Notes under the pieces: model-generated | Seen by the model: only the letters and a program-made list of their open reading frames with translations | The model's database searches: none | Told to the model about the DNA's origin: nothing | Program-made: the position numbers and the translations under genes | Shown: positions 29,218 through 36,791 of the stretch, in pieces | Position numbering within the stretch: position 1 is the stretch's first letter | Layout of the letters: every line of letters starts with the position of its first letter | NCBI GenBank assembly: GCA_029865225.1 | Contig: JAOUHJ010000019.1 | Location: 1-51,053 of the forward strand | Source: Nitrospira sp. | GTDB taxonomy: Bacteria; Nitrospirota; Nitrospiria; Nitrospirales; Nitrospiraceae | Reading direction: 5' to 3' | DNA length: 51,053 bases

Positions 29218-29418
29218 TCAGATGGTTTCTGTTCGATTCTCTCCCCTGCGGTAGACTGACCGTCTCCTGATTTCGTAAGCCTGTTCAGAATGGGGAGTAT
29301 GAGTAAACCAGGACCTTAGCACAAACCAGAGACAAGAAATTGTATGCCTGCTTGTCCCACAGGCAGAAATAGAATAAATCGCTGATCCGGCAGGATGGGT
29401 CCCTGCTCGAAGATGGGT

Positions 29419-29739
29419 TTATGCAGAACGACGCACCCGGGTCAGCCGTCTGTGCTTGGGATGCTGTAATTCGACTCGGACCGGCCGCCCAAGCGCCGCG
29501 GCCATGTTCACCAGCGCATCTAAGGAAAAGCGAGAGATCCGTCCGCGGAGGAGATCATTGATCCGCGGTTGCGTGACCCCACATTTGGCACCCGCTTCAA
29601 CCTGAGTCCATCCGTTCTCCTCAATGACCTCGGTGAGCTGCCGCATGAGCTCAGATCGCGCACGCAAATTCGCCGCTTGTTCGGGTGTATCGGCCAAGGC
29701 ATCCCACACACTCTTGAAACTATGGATCGTCTTAGTCAT
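29419..29739 (-). CDS. XRE-type antitoxin, HigA-like (module 1)
   Basis: 106 residues from the ATG at 29739, which overlaps the end of the upstream toxin gene by 8 bp; the longer frame was rejected. The N-terminal F-K-S-V-W-D-A-L-A-D-T-P-E-Q-A-A-N-L-R-A-R-S-E-L is followed by a helix-turn-helix (E-N-G-W-T-Q-V-E-A-G-A-K-C-G-V-T-Q-P-R-I-N-D-L-L-R-G). Such HTH_37-type proteins neutralise RelE/HigB toxins encoded directly upstream and repress their own promoter. It differs from its twin at 30894 at nine positions. Divergence is concentrated at the C-terminus. Confidence 0.9.
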   Translation of the reverse strand: MTKTIHSFKSVWDALADTPEQAANLRARSELMRQLTEVIEENGWTQVEAGAKCGVTQPRINDLLRGRISRFSLDALVNMAAALGRPVRVELQHPKHRRLTRVRRSA

Positions 29740-30061
29740 GTCTCCCTCGCCTGAGTTCAGCGTACCGCGTTCTCGCCAGCTCGATGTCGCGCTCGCTCGT
29801 GGCCCGAGCTTTCTTCTGAAACGCATGCAACACGTAGACGGCCTCCGCGAAGCGGGCTATGTAGACCACGCGATACGTACCGGAGTCACCCCATACTCGG
29901 AGTTCTTCAACTCCCTTTCCAACCGACGACATCGGTTTGAAATCGGTTGGCTGCTTGCCGTGCTGGACTTGCTCCAGTTGGTACCCCGCATCATGCCGCA
30001 CATCTTCTGGAAACTGTCGGAGACACTCCAGCGAGTTTCCAAGAAAGCGCAGCGGTTTCAC
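29732..30061 (-). CDS. RelE/HigB-family toxin, phage Gp49-like (module 1)
   Basis: 109 residues. K-P-L-R-F-L-G-N-S-L-E-C-L-R-Q-F-P start, H-D-A-G-Y-Q-L-E-Q-V-Q-H-G-K-Q-P, E-L-R-V-W-G-D-S-G-T-Y-R-V-V-Y-I-A-R-F and V-L-H-A-F-Q-K-K-A-R-A-T are the usual Gp49-like/HigB motifs. Family members are mRNA interferases acting at the ribosome. The toxin-first order with overlap is the HigBA arrangement. Only three residues differ from the second copy at 31207, so the duplication is recent. No damage to either reading frame is seen. Confidence 0.9.
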   Translation of the reverse strand: MKPLRFLGNSLECLRQFPEDVRHDAGYQLEQVQHGKQPTDFKPMSSVGKGVEELRVWGDSGTYRVVYIARFAEAVYVLHAFQKKARATSERDIELARTRYAELRRGRHD

Positions 30062-30223
30062 AGAGTGATTATACCCGTTTGGATATACTGTGACAAGCCC
30101 AAGAAGATGCGATCAAGCGGGAGGTTCAAGGGCACCAGGTTAGGTATCATGCGGCAAGCACTGTCCCTTCGATTGTGAAGGTGAGGGAGGGGCTGAGGCA
30201 GGCTATCAACGATGGGTTGAGCG

Positions 30224-30375
30224 CCTCGCCTCCACCAAACCTCGCTTGCGCGTACCGCCGCGTTCGATCAAATCGCGGCGGATAGGTACTTTGCCTCCAG
30301 TGGGCTCTGATTCTTAACGTCGGCTGACCCGTCGGCTTCTCCCCTTATTGATGCCGTCGGGTAAACCCCACCAGC
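30224..30375. repeat. Structured hairpin repeats after toxin-antitoxin module 1
   Basis: A stem CCGCCGCG/CGCGGCGG (about 30255-30281) is followed by GGATAGGTAC; 79 bp on, a stem CCCGTCGGC/GCCGTCGGG leads to GGGTAAACCCCACCAG at 30359. A further short hairpin (GTGCTC-aatc-GAGCAC) follows near 30391. The units resemble those after module 2. This is the main content of the gene-free stretch 30062-30528. They may be REP-like elements or structured RNA. Confidence 0.6.
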
Positions 30376-30528
30376 AAGTCCGCCTTCCCGTGCTCAATCG
30401 AGCACATCCATGCTCGCTCATGGCGGGCCGGTATTAGAAGTTCGACTCGCCATTCGATCGCTCGGCCCAGAGGCTCTCGACGGGCGGACTCAGGGCTCGC
30501 CTGTCCCGAGCGAAAGCCGAGGGGCGGT

Positions 30529-30816
30529 ATGTATTGCGTGTACCTGCTGCGCTGTTCGGATGATTCCTTTTCTGTAGGCTCAACGAAGAACGTGGGAGGT
30601 CGCGTTCGTACCCACGATAGTGGTCGAAGGGCAACCTACACATTCAAACGTCGGCTCGTTCGATTAATGTACACAGAGGTCTTTGATACGGAAACGCAAG
30701 CCATCAAGCGAGAGCGTCAGCTAAAAAGATGGAGTGCTACAAAAAAGGCAGACCCTGATTGCTGGCAAGATCGAAAAGCTCAGAAGTTTGAGCAAGCGAC
30801 GTGCGTCGGGATGTGA
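30529..30816 (+). CDS. GIY-YIG nuclease domain protein, UPF0213-like
   Basis: 95 residues. V-Y-L-L-R-C-S-D-D-S-F-S-V-G-S-T is the degenerate GIY-YIG core, followed by R-x-x-T-H-D-S-G-R-R-A-T-Y-T, the glutamate of Y-T-E-V-F and K-R-E-R-Q-L-K-R-W-S, all as in short single-domain GIY-YIG proteins. The second tyrosine of the signature, normally Y-x-G, is replaced by serine, which could reduce activity. The C-terminus also departs from the usual ending. The gene is flanked by the duplicated toxin-antitoxin blocks and faces the other way. The cellular role of this subgroup is unknown. Confidence 0.8.
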   Translation: MYCVYLLRCSDDSFSVGSTKNVGGRVRTHDSGRRATYTFKRRLVRLMYTEVFDTETQAIKRERQLKRWSATKKADPDCWQDRKAQKFEQATCVGM

Positions 30817-30893
30817 ACGCTCCAATTAGCTGAGCTGGAAAGAGTCTTCAACCCACCAGTAGGTCTATCTCCTCCTGCTCAACTGTTGGGGGG

Positions 30894-31214
30894 TTAGGCA
30901 GAACGACGTTCTCGGGACAACCGTTTGGGCTTGGGATGCTCTAATTCGACGCGGACCGGCCGCCCAAGCGCCGCGGCAATATTCACTAGCGCATCCAAGG
31001 AAAAGCGCGAGATCCGTCCGCGAAGCAGATCATTGATCCGCGGCTGCGTGACCCCACATTTGGCACCCGCTTCCATTTGAGTCCACCCGTTCTCCTCAAT
31101 GACATCGGTGATCTGCCGCATGAGCTCAGATCGCGCACGCAAATTCGCCGCCTGTTCGGGTGTATCGGCCAAGGCATCCCACACACTCTTGAAACTGTGG
31201 ATCGTCTTAGTCAT
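30894..31214 (-). CDS. XRE-type antitoxin, HigA-like (module 2)
   Basis: 106 residues, start ATG at 31214, again overlapping the toxin gene end by 8 bp. The helix-turn-helix is identical to module 1 apart from V-to-M in Q-M-E-A-G-A-K-C. Changes such as Q-to-E and H-to-P cluster near the C-terminal E-H-P-K-P-K-R-L-S. This region often contacts the toxin, so cross-neutralisation between the two modules may be altered, though the toxins are almost identical. Function as for module 1. Confidence 0.9.
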   Translation of the reverse strand: MTKTIHSFKSVWDALADTPEQAANLRARSELMRQITDVIEENGWTQMEAGAKCGVTQPRINDLLRGRISRFSLDALVNIAAALGRPVRVELEHPKPKRLSRERRSA

Positions 31215-31536
31215 GTCTCCCTCGCCTGAGTTCAACGTATCGCGTTCTCGCCAGCTCGATGTCGCGCTCGCTCGTGGCCCGGGCTTTCTTCTGAAACGCA
31301 TGCAACACGTAGACGGCTTCAGCGAAGCGAGCTATGTAGACCACGCGATAGGTACCGGAGTCATCCCACACCCGGAGTTCCTCAACTCCTTTTCCAACCG
31401 ACGACATCGGTTTGAAATCGGTTGGCTGCTTGCCGTGCTGGACTTGCTCCAGTTGGTATCCTGCATCGTGCCGAGCATCTTCCGGAAACTGTCGGAGACA
31501 CTCCAGCGAGTTTCCGAGAAAGCGCAGCGGTTTCAC
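31207..31536 (-). CDS. RelE/HigB-family toxin, phage Gp49-like (module 2)
   Basis: 109 residues differing from the first copy only by V-to-A, G-to-D and A-to-V. All motif residues are kept, including R-V-V-Y-I-A-R-F and H-A-F-Q-K-K. The upstream 170 bp, with the presumed promoter, are also shared, so both modules should respond alike. Retaining two intact toxins suggests both are still neutralised. See module 1 for mechanism. Confidence 0.9.
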   Translation of the reverse strand: MKPLRFLGNSLECLRQFPEDARHDAGYQLEQVQHGKQPTDFKPMSSVGKGVEELRVWDDSGTYRVVYIARFAEAVYVLHAFQKKARATSERDIELARTRYVELRRGRHD

Positions 31537-31698: not shown

Positions 31699-31950
31699 CC
31701 TTGCCTCCACCAAACCACACTTCGTGTGTACCGCCCGCTATTCATCGCCTTATCGTGATAGATGCGGGCGGATAAACTCCTTAAGTGTCGTTTCATCTCT
31801 TCGGTTGACCCAGCACCTATTTTATGGTTTTGATTCGTAATCAACGACGCCGGATGGAACCCACCAGTGTGTTGCCTTTTCTCTCCCGTCTACCGCGGGC
31901 TCTTTTTCGCTTTATCGAATCAGCGCCCACGGATAAACCCTACCAGTGTT
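31699..31950. repeat. Structured hairpin repeats after toxin-antitoxin module 2
   Basis: Three units begin with GGAT(A/G)(A/G)A-type motifs at 31770, 31852 and 31931, 82 and 79 bp apart, reading GGATAAACTCC, GGATGGAACCC and GGATAAACCCT, the last two followed by ACCAGTGT. Before the first is a stem CCGCCCGC/GCGGGCGG; before the third CCGCGGGC/GCCCACGG. The first stem is the counterpart of CCGCCGCG/CGCGGCGG in the other copy, with compensating changes. The stretch 31537-32209 has no supported gene apart from these repeats and, at its right end, the otsA promoter region. Confidence 0.6.
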
Positions 31951-32209
31951 CAACTTCTTCTTCCGTCAGCTCGACCTAGAGCCATGCAGATGGCTCTGGG
32001 GACGGTATATAGTCCACAAGCCGCTGTTCACTAATCCCGCATTTCTCTCCTGTTGTGGGTATCTCGTCACACTGTCCGGCATGATCGGTAGAGCCATCCG
32101 TTTACCTCTCCCGATCAATGCAGAAATCCGACGGATATAGAGTAAATACTGTAGGTATACAACATGGGTATATTTAGTTTATGTGCACAACGTACACTTA
32201 TGTCCGCAC

Positions 32210-34441
32210 ATGAGACTCTCACTACGATTCATCATCCCGTTGGCGTTCGTCTTGGGCTTTATTGCCTATGGGGTCATCAGCCTCGTCGATTCTCTGGAAC
32301 AAAAATGGTTCGTCCGGGATCTCGACCTGCGGTCCAAGCTGATGGTTGGCACGATGGAAAAGCCGCTCGCCGACCTCGTCGCGACGAATTCCAAGAACAA
32401 GATCCGGGCGTATTTTACTCGTATCGTCCAGGATGAACGGCTGTACGCGATCGGCTTCTGCAGTCGCGAGAACCGCCTGTTGTACGAGACCCAATCCTAC
32501 CCCGAAGATGTGACGTGCCAGGCGACCATGAGTCTCTCTCCAGGCTCGTCGACCATGATGTCGCTCGGCCACGGGCTTGTTCACATCACATCGGCGACGA
32601 TCGAATCAAGCGGACATCCCATCGGACGGCTGGTTCTACTCCACGACATGAGTTTCATCGAGCAACGCAGCAGCGACACCCGGTGGTACATCTTCTACTT
32701 TTTTGTGGGACTTGCGGCGGTAATCTCGCTGATCACCGTGTCGGTTGCACACATCAGCTGGCATGGGTGGGTCGTGAGTGTTCGAGCCATGCTGGGCGGG
32801 GAAGGGCTCCTCGCTCGTCTGAAGCACGAGGACCATGCGCCGGAACTCCGACCGCTGGCCCAGGATCTGCGGTCGCTGGTTCAAGCGCTGGAGACCGACC
32901 GCCGCATGCGCGATGAAAGCCAGGTGTCGTGGAGTCCAGCCAGCCTCAGGTCGATCCTTCATGAACAGCTTGCCGGGGACCAAGTCCTGATTGTCTCCAA
33001 TCGGCAACCCTACGCCCATAATTGGCAGGATCAGAACATTGTGGTGCAGGTGCCGGCGAGTGGGCTGGTGTCGGCCCTTGAACCGGTCATGCGGGCCTGT
33101 TCCGGGACGTGGATTGCGCATGGAAACGGGTCGGCTGATCGAGCCATGGTGGATCAACGGGATCATGTTGCTGTCCCACCCGCCCATCCTACGTATCAGA
33201 TTCGTCGGGTATGGCTGACGCCGGAAGAAGAGGCTGGATACTACTATGGATTTTCCAATGAGGGGCTCTGGCCGCTTTGTCATATCGCCCATGTCCGGCC
33301 CACATTCCGGTCGTCTGATTGGAAGCAGTATGTCGCCGTCAACGAGCGGTTTGCGCAAGCCGTGTATGAGGAGGCGACGAACGACAATCCGGTCGTGCTC
33401 GTGCAGGACTACCATTTTGCCCTGCTTCCAAGGCTGATTCGAAATCAATTACCGAATGCGACAATCATCATGTTTTGGCATATCCCCTGGCCGAATGCCG
33501 AGAGCTTCGGGATCTGTCCCTGGCGGGAGGAAATTCTCGATGGTCTGCTGGGAAGCAGCATTCTGGGATTCCACACCAGAGTACATTGCAATAACTTCAT
33601 CGATAGTGTCGATCGTCTGCTCGAAACACGGATCGATCGCAACAGTTCGACGATCTCCTTCGGGGGCAAGATGACCGCGGTCAACCCCTATCCGATTTCC
33701 ATTGAATGGCCTATCCAATGGCTGGCGGACCAGAAGCCGGTGCCGGAATGCCGAATGAGTCTACGAGAGCGCTACGGGATGCCTTCCAACCGCCTTATTG
33801 GGCTGGGAGTAGAGCGCCTGGACTACACCAAGGGGATCATCGAACGGTTCATGGCTGTGGAACGGCTGCTGGAACTTCAGCCAGAGTGGATCGGGCGATT
33901 TACTTTTCTTCAGATCGCGGCTCCCAGTCGATGGGTCATCGAACAATACAACAGTTTTAACAGGCAGGTCTTGGCGTTGGCGGAGCAGATCAACAAGCGG
34001 TTTGGCCGAGACGGCTATCAGCCGATCTCTTTAAAGATCCAACATCATGAGCCGGCGGAGGTGTACGAGTGTTATCGTGGCGCGGACCTATGCGTCGTGA
34101 GCAGTCTCCATGACGGCATGAATCTCGTTGCCAAGGAATTTATCGGTGCCCGTGATGACGAGCAGGGGGTGTTGATCTTGAGCCAGTTTACCGGTGCAGC
34201 CCGTGAGTTGACGGAAGCACTGGTGATCAACCCGTACGACATCGATCAATTTGCCGCCGCACTACACCTTGCGTTGACGATGCCCACAACGGAGCAACGA
34301 GCCCGCATGCAGAGCATGCGTGGACTGATTCAAGAGTTTAACGTATATCGCTGGGCTGGTCGTATGCTGATGGATGCCGCTCGCATGCGCCAAAAAGAGC
34401 GAGTGATGAAGCAAGTCGGGCAGGCAAGTTTGTTGAGCTGA
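32210..34441 (+). CDS. otsA: Membrane-anchored trehalose-6-phosphate synthase
   Basis: 743 residues, about 270 longer than ordinary OtsA. A membrane helix (7-26), an extracytoplasmic domain (27-158) and a second helix (159-181) precede a HAMP-like linker. The GT20 glycosyltransferase starts near 265 with V-L-I-V-S-N-R-Q-P and shows V-Q-D-Y-H-F-A-L-L-P, F-W-H-I-P-W-P-N-A-E, L-G-V-E-R-L-D-Y-T-K-G-I and S-L-H-D-G-M-N-L-V-A-K-E-F. It makes trehalose 6-phosphate from a nucleotide-activated glucose and glucose 6-phosphate. The sensor-like N-terminus suggests that activity or location responds to an envelope signal; this is inference. The otsB gene follows after 18 bp. The ATG at 32210 lacks a strong ribosome-binding site. 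Confidence 0.9.
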   Translation: MRLSLRFIIPLAFVLGFIAYGVISLVDSLEQKWFVRDLDLRSKLMVGTMEKPLADLVATNSKNKIRAYFTRIVQDERLYAIGFCSRENRLLYETQSYPEDVTCQATMSLSPGSSTMMSLGHGLVHITSATIESSGHPIGRLVLLHDMSFIEQRSSDTRWYIFYFFVGLAAVISLITVSVAHISWHGWVVSVRAMLGGEGLLARLKHEDHAPELRPLAQDLRSLVQALETDRRMRDESQVSWSPASLRSILHEQLAGDQVLIVSNRQPYAHNWQDQNIVVQVPASGLVSALEPVMRACSGTWIAHGNGSADRAMVDQRDHVAVPPAHPTYQIRRVWLTPEEEAGYYYGFSNEGLWPLCHIAHVRPTFRSSDWKQYVAVNERFAQAVYEEATNDNPVVLVQDYHFALLPRLIRNQLPNATIIMFWHIPWPNAESFGICPWREEILDGLLGSSILGFHTRVHCNNFIDSVDRLLETRIDRNSSTISFGGKMTAVNPYPISIEWPIQWLADQKPVPECRMSLRERYGMPSNRLIGLGVERLDYTKGIIERFMAVERLLELQPEWIGRFTFLQIAAPSRWVIEQYNSFNRQVLALAEQINKRFGRDGYQPISLKIQHHEPAEVYECYRGADLCVVSSLHDGMNLVAKEFIGARDDEQGVLILSQFTGAARELTEALVINPYDIDQFAAALHLALTMPTTEQRARMQSMRGLIQEFNVYRWAGRMLMDAARMRQKERVMKQVGQASLLS

Positions 34442-34459
34442 GAGGGTGGTGATCAAGCG

Positions 34460-35218
34460 ATGAACTACCTCTTGTCTGAAAAAGGAAGACGAGAGCTGGA
34501 GGCGCTCTCGAAGGGGCGGTGTCTGTACGCGTTTGATTTTGACGGCACCCTCGCCAAGATCGTTTCCGATCCTGGTGGCGCTCGACTAGGGCGCTCCGTC
34601 CAAGTTTGGCTCGAGGCACTCGCGAAACGCGCTCAGACCGCCGTGATCTCAGGTCGTTCATTGGAGGACCTTCGGTCTCGTATCGGGGCTGGGGTCTCTT
34701 GTCTAGTCGGGAACCATGGTTCAGAAGGTCCTCATGTGGTACAGGAGGAGATGTTCCAAGTCCAAGAGACCTGTAACGGCTGGCTTCAACTGATCACCGA
34801 TCAATTTCAGGCTGACCTAACCCAATGCGGAGTGTTCGTTGAAAAGAAGTCGTACTCGCTCTCATTCCACTACCGAACAGTTCAACAGCGAAGCGAGGCT
34901 CGGGCGCTGATCTCCCGGATTGTTGCTGAATTGGCTCCCACTCCACGGATCGTGCTGGGGAAATCGGTGGTCAATGTCATGCCGACAACGGCGTGGCACA
35001 AGGGAACGGCGTTGCAGAAATGCATGCGCCAACTCGGTTGTACGACCGCCCTCTATGTGGGTGACGATGTAACCGATGAAGATGTGTTTGCTCTACGAGA
35101 TCCTCGGGTCCTTACCGTGAGAATCGGGAAGAAGAATGCCTCATCAGCCCGGTTCTTCCTCAACCGCCAAACGGAAATCGCGCAGGTATTACGGTTGATT
35201 GTTGAAATGGCTGGGTGA
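34460..35218 (+). CDS. otsB: Trehalose-6-phosphate phosphatase
   Basis: 252 residues of the HAD superfamily. F-D-F-D-G-T-L-A-K-I (about 22-31) holds the nucleophile and acid aspartates. V-I-S-G-R-S-L-E-D-L-R follows, then G-N-H-G-S-E-G, the lysine region near G-K-S-V-V-N-V-M-P and G-D-D-V-T-D-E-D-V-F with the metal-binding aspartates. It removes phosphate from trehalose 6-phosphate, completing trehalose synthesis. It sits 18 bp after otsA on the same strand with a GGTGGT-type spacer and is surely co-expressed. Length and motifs are normal. Trehalose serves as osmolyte or stress protectant. Confidence 0.95.
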   Translation: MNYLLSEKGRRELEALSKGRCLYAFDFDGTLAKIVSDPGGARLGRSVQVWLEALAKRAQTAVISGRSLEDLRSRIGAGVSCLVGNHGSEGPHVVQEEMFQVQETCNGWLQLITDQFQADLTQCGVFVEKKSYSLSFHYRTVQQRSEARALISRIVAELAPTPRIVLGKSVVNVMPTTAWHKGTALQKCMRQLGCTTALYVGDDVTDEDVFALRDPRVLTVRIGKKNASSARFFLNRQTEIAQVLRLIVEMAG

Positions 35219-35240
35219 AGAGCCAGCACGAGCCCTTGAG

Positions 35241-36791
35241 TTACTCCGCTAACGGAGATCGTTCTCGTCCAAGAAGTAGGTCATAGGGAGCAAAGTCATC
35301 GGTCAAGACGACACCGGCAGGCCAAGGTTCCGTCCGGCGGGTACCCAATAGCGCGATGGATTCCATTGGTAGGCGATGACTCTGAGCCATCTCAGAAATC
35401 CGAGTTTCAATCTCTGCTGCCGGTTCAGCTTCGATGGGACGGCCCCCAAAAAAGATCAAGTTTTTTGCCGGCGTCATGCTGGTCCTCCATGGGCCTTCGA
35501 CTGCGAATGTTAGGAGAGCAGGGAAGGACTGGCGCAGGGTTTGTACAACTGCGGCGGCTCGGGCAAGGTCTCCTTCCTTACTGGATGAAGCGAGGTTCAC
35601 CGCGAGGACCCCGTCTGGATTCAGTCGCGTCCGCACTAATGAGTAGAACTCCGCCGTGGTGAGATGAAAAGGGATCATGTCTCGGGCGAAGGCATCGATC
35701 CACATGAGATCGTAGGTCTGCTCTGTGGCATTGAGAAAGGCCCGCCCGTCTTTCACGAACACATGATGGTTCACTGGGGGGTGATAATCGAAAAATTCTT
35801 CGGCCATTTGAACCACCACTGGATCAAACTCAATGACATCGAGTTCCAATGTCGGCCAATGTTTTGCCAACCATTTGGCTATGGAGCCGCCGCCATGCCC
35901 AAGGATGAGGCCGCGTCGTGGTTGTGGGGTCAGGGCCAGCGAAGACACCATCATTTGACTATACGGAAGAAACAGGTATGTCGGGTCGGCCTTCCACATG
36001 GTGGCATGAAACGTTCGATCCAATACCAGATACCGAAAGAGATCATCTTCTCGAATCCGAACCTGCTGATACGGACTTTCCTCTTGGTGAATCGGGACCT
36101 TCAACCGTTCAATCGGATGGAGGGCGGTCGCTCCTAGAAGAGAGCAACAGCCCAGAACGATCAGCACGATGAGGCGGCTTGTCGAGGTCCCTTTCGCAAG
36201 CCACAAGATCCCAAGTCCTACCTGTATGCCGCCAAGCCATGCGACCAGCGAGTGGCTTCCGAGCCACGAAAGTAGAAAGAACGCCGTCCCCCAGGTTCCG
36301 GCCAGGCTTCCCACCGTCGACAGGGCGATCATCCGTCCGGTCTGCCGACCGAGATGGTTCATATCTGCCACTGCCAGTCGTAACATGGCCGGTAGCACAC
36401 CACTGAGCCCGAACGCAGGTGGTGCGAGCAGAATGGTTGCCGCTAGACAAGGGCCCAAGCGAGGGTCTTGGACCACTTTCTCGATTTCGAAAAGAATGGG
36501 CTGGTTCGCCCAGGCGATGAGAAAAGTCCACGCTCCAGAAAAAAGCAATAATGCCGCCAGCACCCGTCCATCGGTGTAACGATCGGAGATCCACCCGCCG
36601 AAGGCGTATCCGCTGCTCATGGCGGCCAGAATCACTCCGATTAAGGCGCCCCACACAAACAGTGAACTGCCGAATACCGGTGCCAGCAGGCGACTGCCGA
36701 GGATTTCCAATGCCATGACCACCGCGCCGGTCACCAGAGCGGTCAGGAGCAAAAACCAACGTGGAATTTTTGGAATTCTTGGAGGGGACAT
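35241..36791 (-). CDS. Membrane-bound spermidine synthase-like protein
   Basis: 516 residues. The N-terminal 220 form about seven membrane segments with A-L-E-I-L-G-S-R-L-L-A-P-V-F-G-S-S-L-F-V-W-G and G-Y-A-F-G-G-W-I-S-D-R, as in the fused-MFS spermidine synthase group. The C-terminal half is a PABS/methyltransferase fold: L-I-L-G-H-G-G-G-S-I-A, D-V-I-E-F-D-P-V-V-V-Q-M-A, V-K-D-G-R-A-F-L and M-W-I-D-A-F-A-R-D-M-I-P-F-H-L-T-T-A-E-F-Y. Such proteins may aminopropylate putrescine or act on other substrates; several spermidine-specific residues are not conserved, so the reaction is open. It converges with otsB and stands alone. Confidence 0.82.
   Translation of the reverse strand: MSPPRIPKIPRWFLLLTALVTGAVVMALEILGSRLLAPVFGSSLFVWGALIGVILAAMSSGYAFGGWISDRYTDGRVLAALLLFSGAWTFLIAWANQPILFEIEKVVQDPRLGPCLAATILLAPPAFGLSGVLPAMLRLAVADMNHLGRQTGRMIALSTVGSLAGTWGTAFFLLSWLGSHSLVAWLGGIQVGLGILWLAKGTSTSRLIVLIVLGCCSLLGATALHPIERLKVPIHQEESPYQQVRIREDDLFRYLVLDRTFHATMWKADPTYLFLPYSQMMVSSLALTPQPRRGLILGHGGGSIAKWLAKHWPTLELDVIEFDPVVVQMAEEFFDYHPPVNHHVFVKDGRAFLNATEQTYDLMWIDAFARDMIPFHLTTAEFYSLVRTRLNPDGVLAVNLASSSKEGDLARAAAVVQTLRQSFPALLTFAVEGPWRTSMTPAKNLIFFGGRPIEAEPAAEIETRISEMAQSHRLPMESIALLGTRRTEPWPAGVVLTDDFAPYDLLLGRERSPLAE

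Follow-up and report, generated by a model that had tools for sequence, protein, structure and literature searches.

What does a trehalose-6-phosphate (T6P) synthase homologue gain from 257 residues placed ahead of its enzyme domain? The gene that raises this question belongs to a Nitrospira sp. (GenBank assembly GCA_029865225.1, contig JAOUHJ010000019.1) and lies in a stretch of 51,053 nucleotides, positions 1 to 51,053 of the forward strand, which we call the window. The extra residues form a module of about 255 residues: a first transmembrane helix (TM1), a periplasmic domain, a second transmembrane helix (TM2) and a diverged HAMP-type linker. On balance, we favor the prediction that the protein is a transmembrane receptor-enzyme, in which T6P synthesis is gated by a signal. 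The parts of the locus are as follows.

32210-34441, plus strand: whole gene, Cache-HAMP-type module plus GT20, a transmembrane T6P synthase homologue (743 residues plus stop)
32231-32287, plus strand: TM1, residues 8-26 (hydropathy, alignment, model)
32300-32680, plus strand: periplasmic single-Cache-like (PAS-like) domain, residues 31-157 (model, fold comparison, conservation)
32459-32461, plus strand: Cys84 (conservation, alignments)
32516-32518, plus strand: Cys103 (conservation, alignments)
32690-32746, plus strand: TM2, residues 161-179 (hydropathy, model)
32756-32911, plus strand: diverged HAMP-type linker, residues 183-234 (HAMP match through distant homologues; window-type sequences alone not significant)
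32930-32971, plus strand: linking helix, W241 to L254, just ahead of GT20 strand 1 (conservation, models)
32981-34378, plus strand: GT20 domain, residues 258-723 (PF00982, E 6.3e-120)
34460-35218, plus strand: otsB, T6P phosphatase (TIGR00685, 121.6 bits, cut-off 68.05), 18 bp downstream of the synthase stop

A preliminary description of this DNA had proposed about 260 extra residues arranged as helix, periplasmic domain, helix and HAMP-like linker, with a glycosyltransferase as the output. That arrangement is borne out by the two hydropathic TM segments, the Cache-like model, the HAMP relationship of distant members and the GT20 domain directly behind the module. The interval it gave, 32210-33005, matches the module, except that its final 25 bases belong to the enzyme.

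The enzyme domain scores 401.5 bits with PF00982, well above the family cut-off of 32.5, and is the single GT20 found in the whole 4.12-Mb genome. In an alignment with E. coli OtsA, R10, Y77, D131, H155 and R263 (Met counted) correspond to window R265, Y345, D400, H424 and R536, and K268, R301, D362 and E370 to K541, R574, D635 and E643; apart from the Arg9-Gly22 loop discussed below, we take these to be the residues that bind UDP-glucose and glucose-6-phosphate (G6P) and carry out catalysis. Judged by this alignment, the active site is intact. The family scans of the window protein list GT20, other glycosyltransferase families and weak sub-threshold matches only, with no kinase, HisKA or MCP family and no MscS beta-domain among them. 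Because otsB adjoins, the predicted synthesis of T6P has indirect support, and the same arrangement recurs in relatives: in 70 of 80 loci compared for gene context, otsB lies directly behind the synthase on the same strand.

In residues 1-257 no family exceeds its curated cut-off in either Pfam or NCBI scans. An AlphaFold2 model built from 45 homologues (mean pLDDT 76.9) begins with helices at 2-59, comprising TM1 and a long periplasmic helix, and at 62-76; strands follow at 80-85, 90-93, 114-119, 122-133 and 136-146, and then helices at 148-195 (TM2 and onward), 211-234 and 243-254. The full-length model is consistent with this (mean pLDDT 83.3). Model and hydropathy together give the single-Cache layout, a long N-terminal helix and a PAS-like five-stranded sheet between two TM helices. 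Foldseek returned two PDB chains at E ≤0.001, the top one a model of WalK, and structural alignment ranked the WalK extracellular domain first (Z 12.5, root-mean-square deviation 2.4 over 125 residues), followed by LuxQ (Z 11.8, 2.7, 123 residues) and CitA (Z 10.6, 2.3, 112 residues). A search of PDB sequences with the module profile gave nothing significant (lowest E 0.072). As modeled, the periplasmic part folds like the extracytoplasmic Cache/PAS-like domains found in WalK, CitA and LuxQ. Topology and structure prediction, which the preliminary description had put forward as a check, thus agree with it. Two Pfam candidates were rejected as hydrophobic matches below cut-off: Adeno_E3B (0.002 in the window module, and matched by 25 of the 45 homologues) and TMEM107.

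Conservation extends along the whole module. Across 45 window-type sequences the invariant positions are R6, P10, L11 and A19 at TM1; W33, D37, R41, C84, P98, C103, G139 and R153; and then F165, W187, P215, L220, W241, L246, L250 and G256. In a wider alignment of 29 rows, R6, L11, R41, W241 and L246 are kept in all 29, D146 and R153 in 28, and G139 in 27. C84 and C103 probably form a periplasmic disulfide in the window type; the 16 distant Nitrospirota sequences of the wider alignment have no Cys at either position.

At the level of sequence, the periplasmic domain and the linker are connected to known families through distant members. Half of the 16 distant homologues that were scanned have a Cache-superfamily match at E ≤0.01, all below the Pfam curated cut-offs: sCache_3_2 in L142, L144, L145 and L148 (4e-4 to 1.1e-3), dCache_3 in L149 and L240, sCache_like in L150, and SMP_2 with dCache_1 in L239. 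(SMP_2 is counted as the superfamily is defined in PMC4822843.) The 45 window-type modules gave one sCache_4 match at 0.21 and one CHASE4 match at 0.17. The domain is therefore Cache-like by fold and not a filed Cache member by sequence. For the linker, comparison of distant members with HAMP gave E 1.3e-4 and a score of 23.8, where the best of 100 column shuffles reached 17.5; pooling distant and window-type linkers raised the score to 26.1 (best shuffle 18.8). In L150, Pfam HAMP is matched at 7e-4 over positions 3-52 of 53, immediately after TM2 and below the Pfam cut-off. The distant HAMP-matching linkers align in register with the window linker, whose W187 stands at the position of a proline in the distant rows, and the window protein itself has a weak BaeS match (E 0.016) across TM2 and linker. 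An assignment from window-type sequences alone did not rise above column shuffles and was dropped. Computed through the distant members, the homology suggests a diverged HAMP-type linker.

Is the module actually translated? If the enzyme were made from a downstream start, the N-terminal frame would be an unused artefact of annotation, and two negative results fit such a view: no clear ribosome-binding site is seen in the window ahead of ATG 32210, and a promoter scan of 31840-35300 found no consensus sigma-70 promoter. The relatives argue for the opposite. In many of them the start falls within a few codons of the window start; an in-frame stop lies two to six codons upstream in L003, L024 and L063, and L024 and L063 have a Shine-Dalgarno-like stretch. 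The frame has eight internal Met codons in residues 45-233, each shared by at most 28 of 38 nonredundant relatives, and in ten pairs the module shows a dN/dS of 0.05-0.25, far below 1. Because the start region is conserved, some relatives have upstream stops and dN/dS is low, sequence comparison indicates that translation begins at or very near 32210 (ATG, MRLSLRFIIPL...; GTG at 32183 is also open) and that the module is under purifying selection. Translation from the GT20 domain, one of two findings that the preliminary description had said would overturn its proposal, is thus rejected; conservation of frame and start region across phyla refutes it for the family, and for the window we consider its probability negligible.

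The other such finding, an N-terminal part not conserved in relatives, did not apply either: the module is conserved across phyla. Among near relatives, 31 of 59 genomes match (own included), 28 of them essentially full length. A contig search, from which 80 of 123 loci were kept, mostly full length, extends the family, which has members in Candidatus Nitrospira defluvii (L068) and Noviherbaspirillum suwonense (L090). The kept loci come from Nitrospira and from records labeled Oxalobacteraceae, Burkholderiaceae, Rhodocyclaceae, Deltaproteobacteria, Peribacteraceae, Verrucomicrobia and others, labels that may be wrong for metagenome-assembled genomes (MAGs). We took as complete the 101 of 111 loci that align from residue 1-3 to 720 or beyond, dropping L026, L028, L031, L058, L072, L073, L076, L084, L096 and L102 from the counts. 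All 101 have two TM segments by hydropathy, the presence of the module in this set being partly a product of selection on alignment from residue 1-3. Thirty-eight are less than 92% identical to each other, and the 37 besides the window share 35-84% identity with it in the module and 64-90% in GT20.

A module-only profile (residues 1-262) samples with less bias. Its matches number 70 among 295 Nitrospirota genomes and 21 among 300 from the order to which the Noviherbaspirillum centre G323 belongs. Coordinates place a GT20 in frame directly behind the module in 66 of the 70 and in all of the 21; a hand check of G225 found a module fused to GT20 and cut by the contig end, making 67 of 70. In G076, module and GT20 share one contig end and strand, with different frames in the listed matches. 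G261 was rejected as a carrier, being a histidine kinase with HAMP matched only over TM2-HAMP (profile positions 150-236). The figure of 70 in 295 is a lower bound, the profile missing the two-TM members L178, L238, L239, L240 and L242. GT20 itself scores above cut-off in 122 of the 295 Nitrospirota genomes and 46 of the 300 from the Noviherbaspirillum order. Of 40 sampled genomes in the genus of the window, 32 carry a single GT20 each, and it is these 32 that match the module profile. The survey of Nitrospirota that had been suggested as a check, extended here to the Noviherbaspirillum order, shows a module linked to GT20 and conserved across phyla.

GT20 occurs in Nitrospirota in three arrangements: TM module-GT20 with a separate otsB, soluble OtsA, and an OtsA-OtsB fusion. 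Among 112 GT20 domains placed in a tree, 54 of the 55 TM-linked rows fall together in a single clade (SH-aLRT 100, stem length 0.62); 22 OtsA-OtsB fusions form a separate clade, and soluble OtsA also falls apart from the TM clade. We had supposed that all GT20 frames of about 745 residues in Nitrospirota have the TM architecture; this was wrong, the 22 fusion rows being the exception. Many TM rows were found through the window protein itself. Near-copies among TM rows were removed (to 55), and L225, whose domain ends had become merged, was reassigned to TM manually. Left out were L058, L072, L096 and L203, with one TM ahead of GT20, together with L026 and L084, which are pieces at contig ends; the tree was rebuilt once with two Aminobacter rows added. 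Of the rows L238-L242, picked by GT20 family search, four are two-TM clade members and one is an OtsA-OtsB fusion.

One TM row, the 55th (L232), stands outside the TM clade, next to a soluble GT20. Here an MscS-type module (PF00924, 8.1e-11) is fused N-terminally to GT20. Five genomes from a single genus of the window's class carry the fusion. The other four copies are 80-81% identical to L232 over a stretch that starts at residue 12-15 and reaches the end, and a sixth genome of that genus has a C-terminal piece of it.

L232:1684-3885 (genome G227), L255:3920-6112 (genome G639), L244, L246 and L247: MscS-GT20 fusion loci

In G639, a 4.3-Mb genome on a single contig, PF00924 is matched at 8.6e-12, and the alignment passes from the MscS beta-domain into GT20 without a break. 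The 10-kb surroundings of L255 and L256 showed no OtsB match. The MscS-GT20 protein is a possible tension-gated trehalose synthase. It is an independent fusion of similar logic, so that the joining of a membrane module to GT20 has been kept more than once. Because this separate fusion exists, a membrane or osmotic input to the window-type enzyme becomes, indirectly, more plausible.

How might the module of the window protein act on its enzyme? In the mechanism we propose, the periplasmic domain would sense an envelope or extracellular cue, and the change would travel through TM2 and the diverged HAMP-type linker to helix 241-254. This helix runs into strand 1 of GT20 and on to the catalytic N-loop (R265 to G285), the counterpart of E. 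coli Arg9-Gly22. As described in PMC5685639, that loop lies in the catalytic center of E. coli OtsA and contacts the phosphates of G6P and UDP-glucose. In the full-length model the window N-loop starts at R265, three residues past strand 259-262, and five residues separate the strand from the linking helix 243-253. Because helix, strand and N-loop are so closely spaced, HAMP movement could be felt at the active site. An effect on the N-loop would then determine how fast T6P is made at the inner membrane, with OtsB, encoded by the adjoining gene, completing trehalose. Dimerization, the direction of control and gating through the N-loop are all suppositions of this model. Osmotic control, which the preliminary description had offered as an example, is plausible; envelope stress and a small ligand are further candidates for the signal.

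A number of observations weigh against a signal-gated enzyme. The scans of the window protein list no HAMP or Cache family; eight of the 16 distant homologues lack a Cache match at E 0.01, and just one has HAMP at that level. Aligned alone with 11 HAMP domains of the same genome (hhalign), the window-type linker scores 11.6, and 3 of 60 column shuffles score as high; the match is nonetheless in register with the second HAMP helix. The module is less conserved in sequence than GT20, as is usual for sensors but would be expected of an anchor too. On the enzyme side, TIGR02400, the NCBI OtsA equivalog model, gives 402.4 bits, below its cut-off of 564.85, and otsB was not found beside 10 of the 80 loci, two of them at contig ends. 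Finally, there are reduced and damaged copies. Two Aminobacter plasmid homologues (605 and 606 residues) have one TM and no periplasmic domain and are nested in the TM clade; in Nitrospira, residues 1-144 of L072 were not found despite 1.9 kb of upstream sequence, and L076 is without much of residues 76-159, each on a single MAG contig; and G209 holds a remnant, the first part of the module only, with no GT20 within 8 kb.

Because of the Aminobacter copies and the two truncated Nitrospira modules, plain membrane anchoring stays in play, and it is the main rival to our proposal. The module would then tether, and perhaps dimerize, T6P synthase at the inner membrane, close to OtsB, to an exporter or to the supply of UDP-glucose, and the Cache-like fold would no longer sense anything. 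An anchor would also accord with the evolution of the periplasmic domain, the fastest evolving part by dN in six of ten pairs and tied in one more, and with its shorter form in Oxalobacteraceae-type rows. Yet a bare anchor needs no folded periplasmic domain, and some 130 residues of it are kept across phyla, with R41 present in every row of the wider alignment, the distant subclade included; nor does anchoring call for a HAMP-type linker with a conserved link to GT20, or account for an MscS module in another lineage. Because the Aminobacter copies nest inside the TM clade and lack the periplasmic domain, we conclude that this lineage lost the sensor and kept the enzyme; the copies resembled the family in tblastn, and the one compared is 56% identical to the window protein. 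The nesting and the two damaged Nitrospira copies leave our assessment unchanged, periplasmic-domain loss in Aminobacter having already been allowed for, and we regard anchoring without sensing as unlikely. At the Aminobacter loci (L257:3884-5701 and L258:4145-5965) no otsB is among the listed neighbors, and an amylo-alpha-1,6-glucosidase adjoins.

A second alternative concerns the product. The subthreshold OtsA score would suit a GT20 that makes glucosylglycerol-phosphate or another phosphorylated glucoside, in which case the system is not about trehalose, and the glucosylglycerol-phosphate synthase model is indeed matched, with 291 bits against a cut-off of 569. The score with the OtsA model is higher, 402 bits, and on that ground we rejected a glucosylglycerol-phosphate synthase identity; moreover, the neighboring gene passes the trehalose-phosphatase cut-off and the E. 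coli OtsA substrate residues are kept. A GH15/trehalase-like enzyme (PF00723 plus PF19291), which adjoins in 53 of the 80 loci, could act on other glucosides. In those Nitrospira loci that have it, its gene lies upstream and points the other way, and elsewhere it mostly follows downstream in the same orientation; in the window no such reading frame is adjacent, and the GH15 genes of this genome are on other contigs. Another product seems to us improbable, and by sequence the window GT20 is best called a divergent T6P-synthase homologue rather than a proven OtsA equivalog.

Other features of these neighborhoods deserve mention. At L090:7312-9825, an 838-residue GH15/TREH_N frame with about 240 extra N-terminal residues stands directly behind a TM synthase where otsB is missing; Pfam gave this frame no phosphatase match at E 0.01. 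Behind otsB in the window, on the opposite strand to it (35241-36791), is a membrane protein with a spermidine-synthase domain, whose family adjoins 25 of the 80 loci. Just upstream of the synthase, on the minus strand (29415-31536), are two copies of a Gp49-type toxin and HTH antitoxin pair; their 300-nt cores are 91% identical, start 1475 bp apart and flank a GIY-YIG gene (30529-30816), and one copy was scanned. In two genomes of the Noviherbaspirillum-order sample (L198:475-2976 and L203:379-2997), GT20 is fused on the C-terminal side of a sucrose-phosphatase-like HAD domain (PF05116), a further GT20 architecture.

Each half of the window protein has known counterparts. It shares the GT20 fold, active-site residues and adjoining otsB with E. 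coli OtsA and the ots operon, whereas OtsA has 474 residues, no N-terminal module and 34% identity to the window, and falls outside the TM clade. With Cache-HAMP receptors, both histidine kinases (WalK, CitA, DctB, LuxQ) and chemoreceptors such as Tlp3, it shares a periplasmic fold between two TM helices and, judged through its distant homologues, probably a HAMP-type linker, but its output is a biosynthetic glycosyltransferase. The 2016 survey of the Cache superfamily tabulates kinases, chemoreceptors, c-di-GMP enzymes, cyclases, phosphatases, transcription factors and ion channels, the outputs being known signal-transduction domains, SMP_2 excepted (PMC4822843). OtsA-OtsB fusions, found in the same phylum, also join GT20 to another domain; there, however, the phosphatase is joined C-terminally, without a two-TM N-terminal module, and the clade is separate. 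The msc-gt-tpsp operon of Thermoproteus tenax genetically ties a trehalose synthase to a putative mechanosensitive channel, and a partner protein activates its T6P synthase; unlike the window system it is archaeal and made of separate proteins, with a bifunctional TPSP and no sensor fused to the synthase (PMC3634074). Arthrobacter OtsA has been linked to osmotic sensing as an "osmotic stress sensor," but the role described lies in self-assembly and morphogenesis together with T6P, and the word "transmembrane" is absent from the text (PMC5685639). Among the open-licence PMC papers searched we found no description of a Cache-HAMP-GT20 or MscS-GT20 protein. The receptor layout is known and the enzyme is known; it is their combination that we did not find there.

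Bacterial osmolyte synthesis is usually explained by transcription and by direct ionic effects on soluble enzymes. If our reading is true, wiring a trehalose synthase to a transmembrane receptor would link the state of the envelope directly to osmolyte flux, and a biosynthetic enzyme would join the outputs of Cache-HAMP receptors. More tentatively, and at a little less than even odds in our view, there may be a cross-phylum family in which a Cache-HAMP unit allosterically gates compatible-solute synthesis. No kinase, second messenger or transcription step would be involved, since the HAMP output helix would itself pull on the GT-B catalytic N-loop; with MscS-GT20 arising independently, one-protein osmoregulatory circuits would have evolved at least twice. 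The MscS-GT20 fusion makes the osmotic idea directly testable. Because the TM synthase is the sole GT20 wherever GT20 exists in the sampled genomes of the genus, the finding bears on the salt and drying tolerance of these nitrifiers. A signal outside the cell membrane could, if the reading holds, directly switch production of the stress-protecting sugar trehalose in Nitrospira and some other bacteria.

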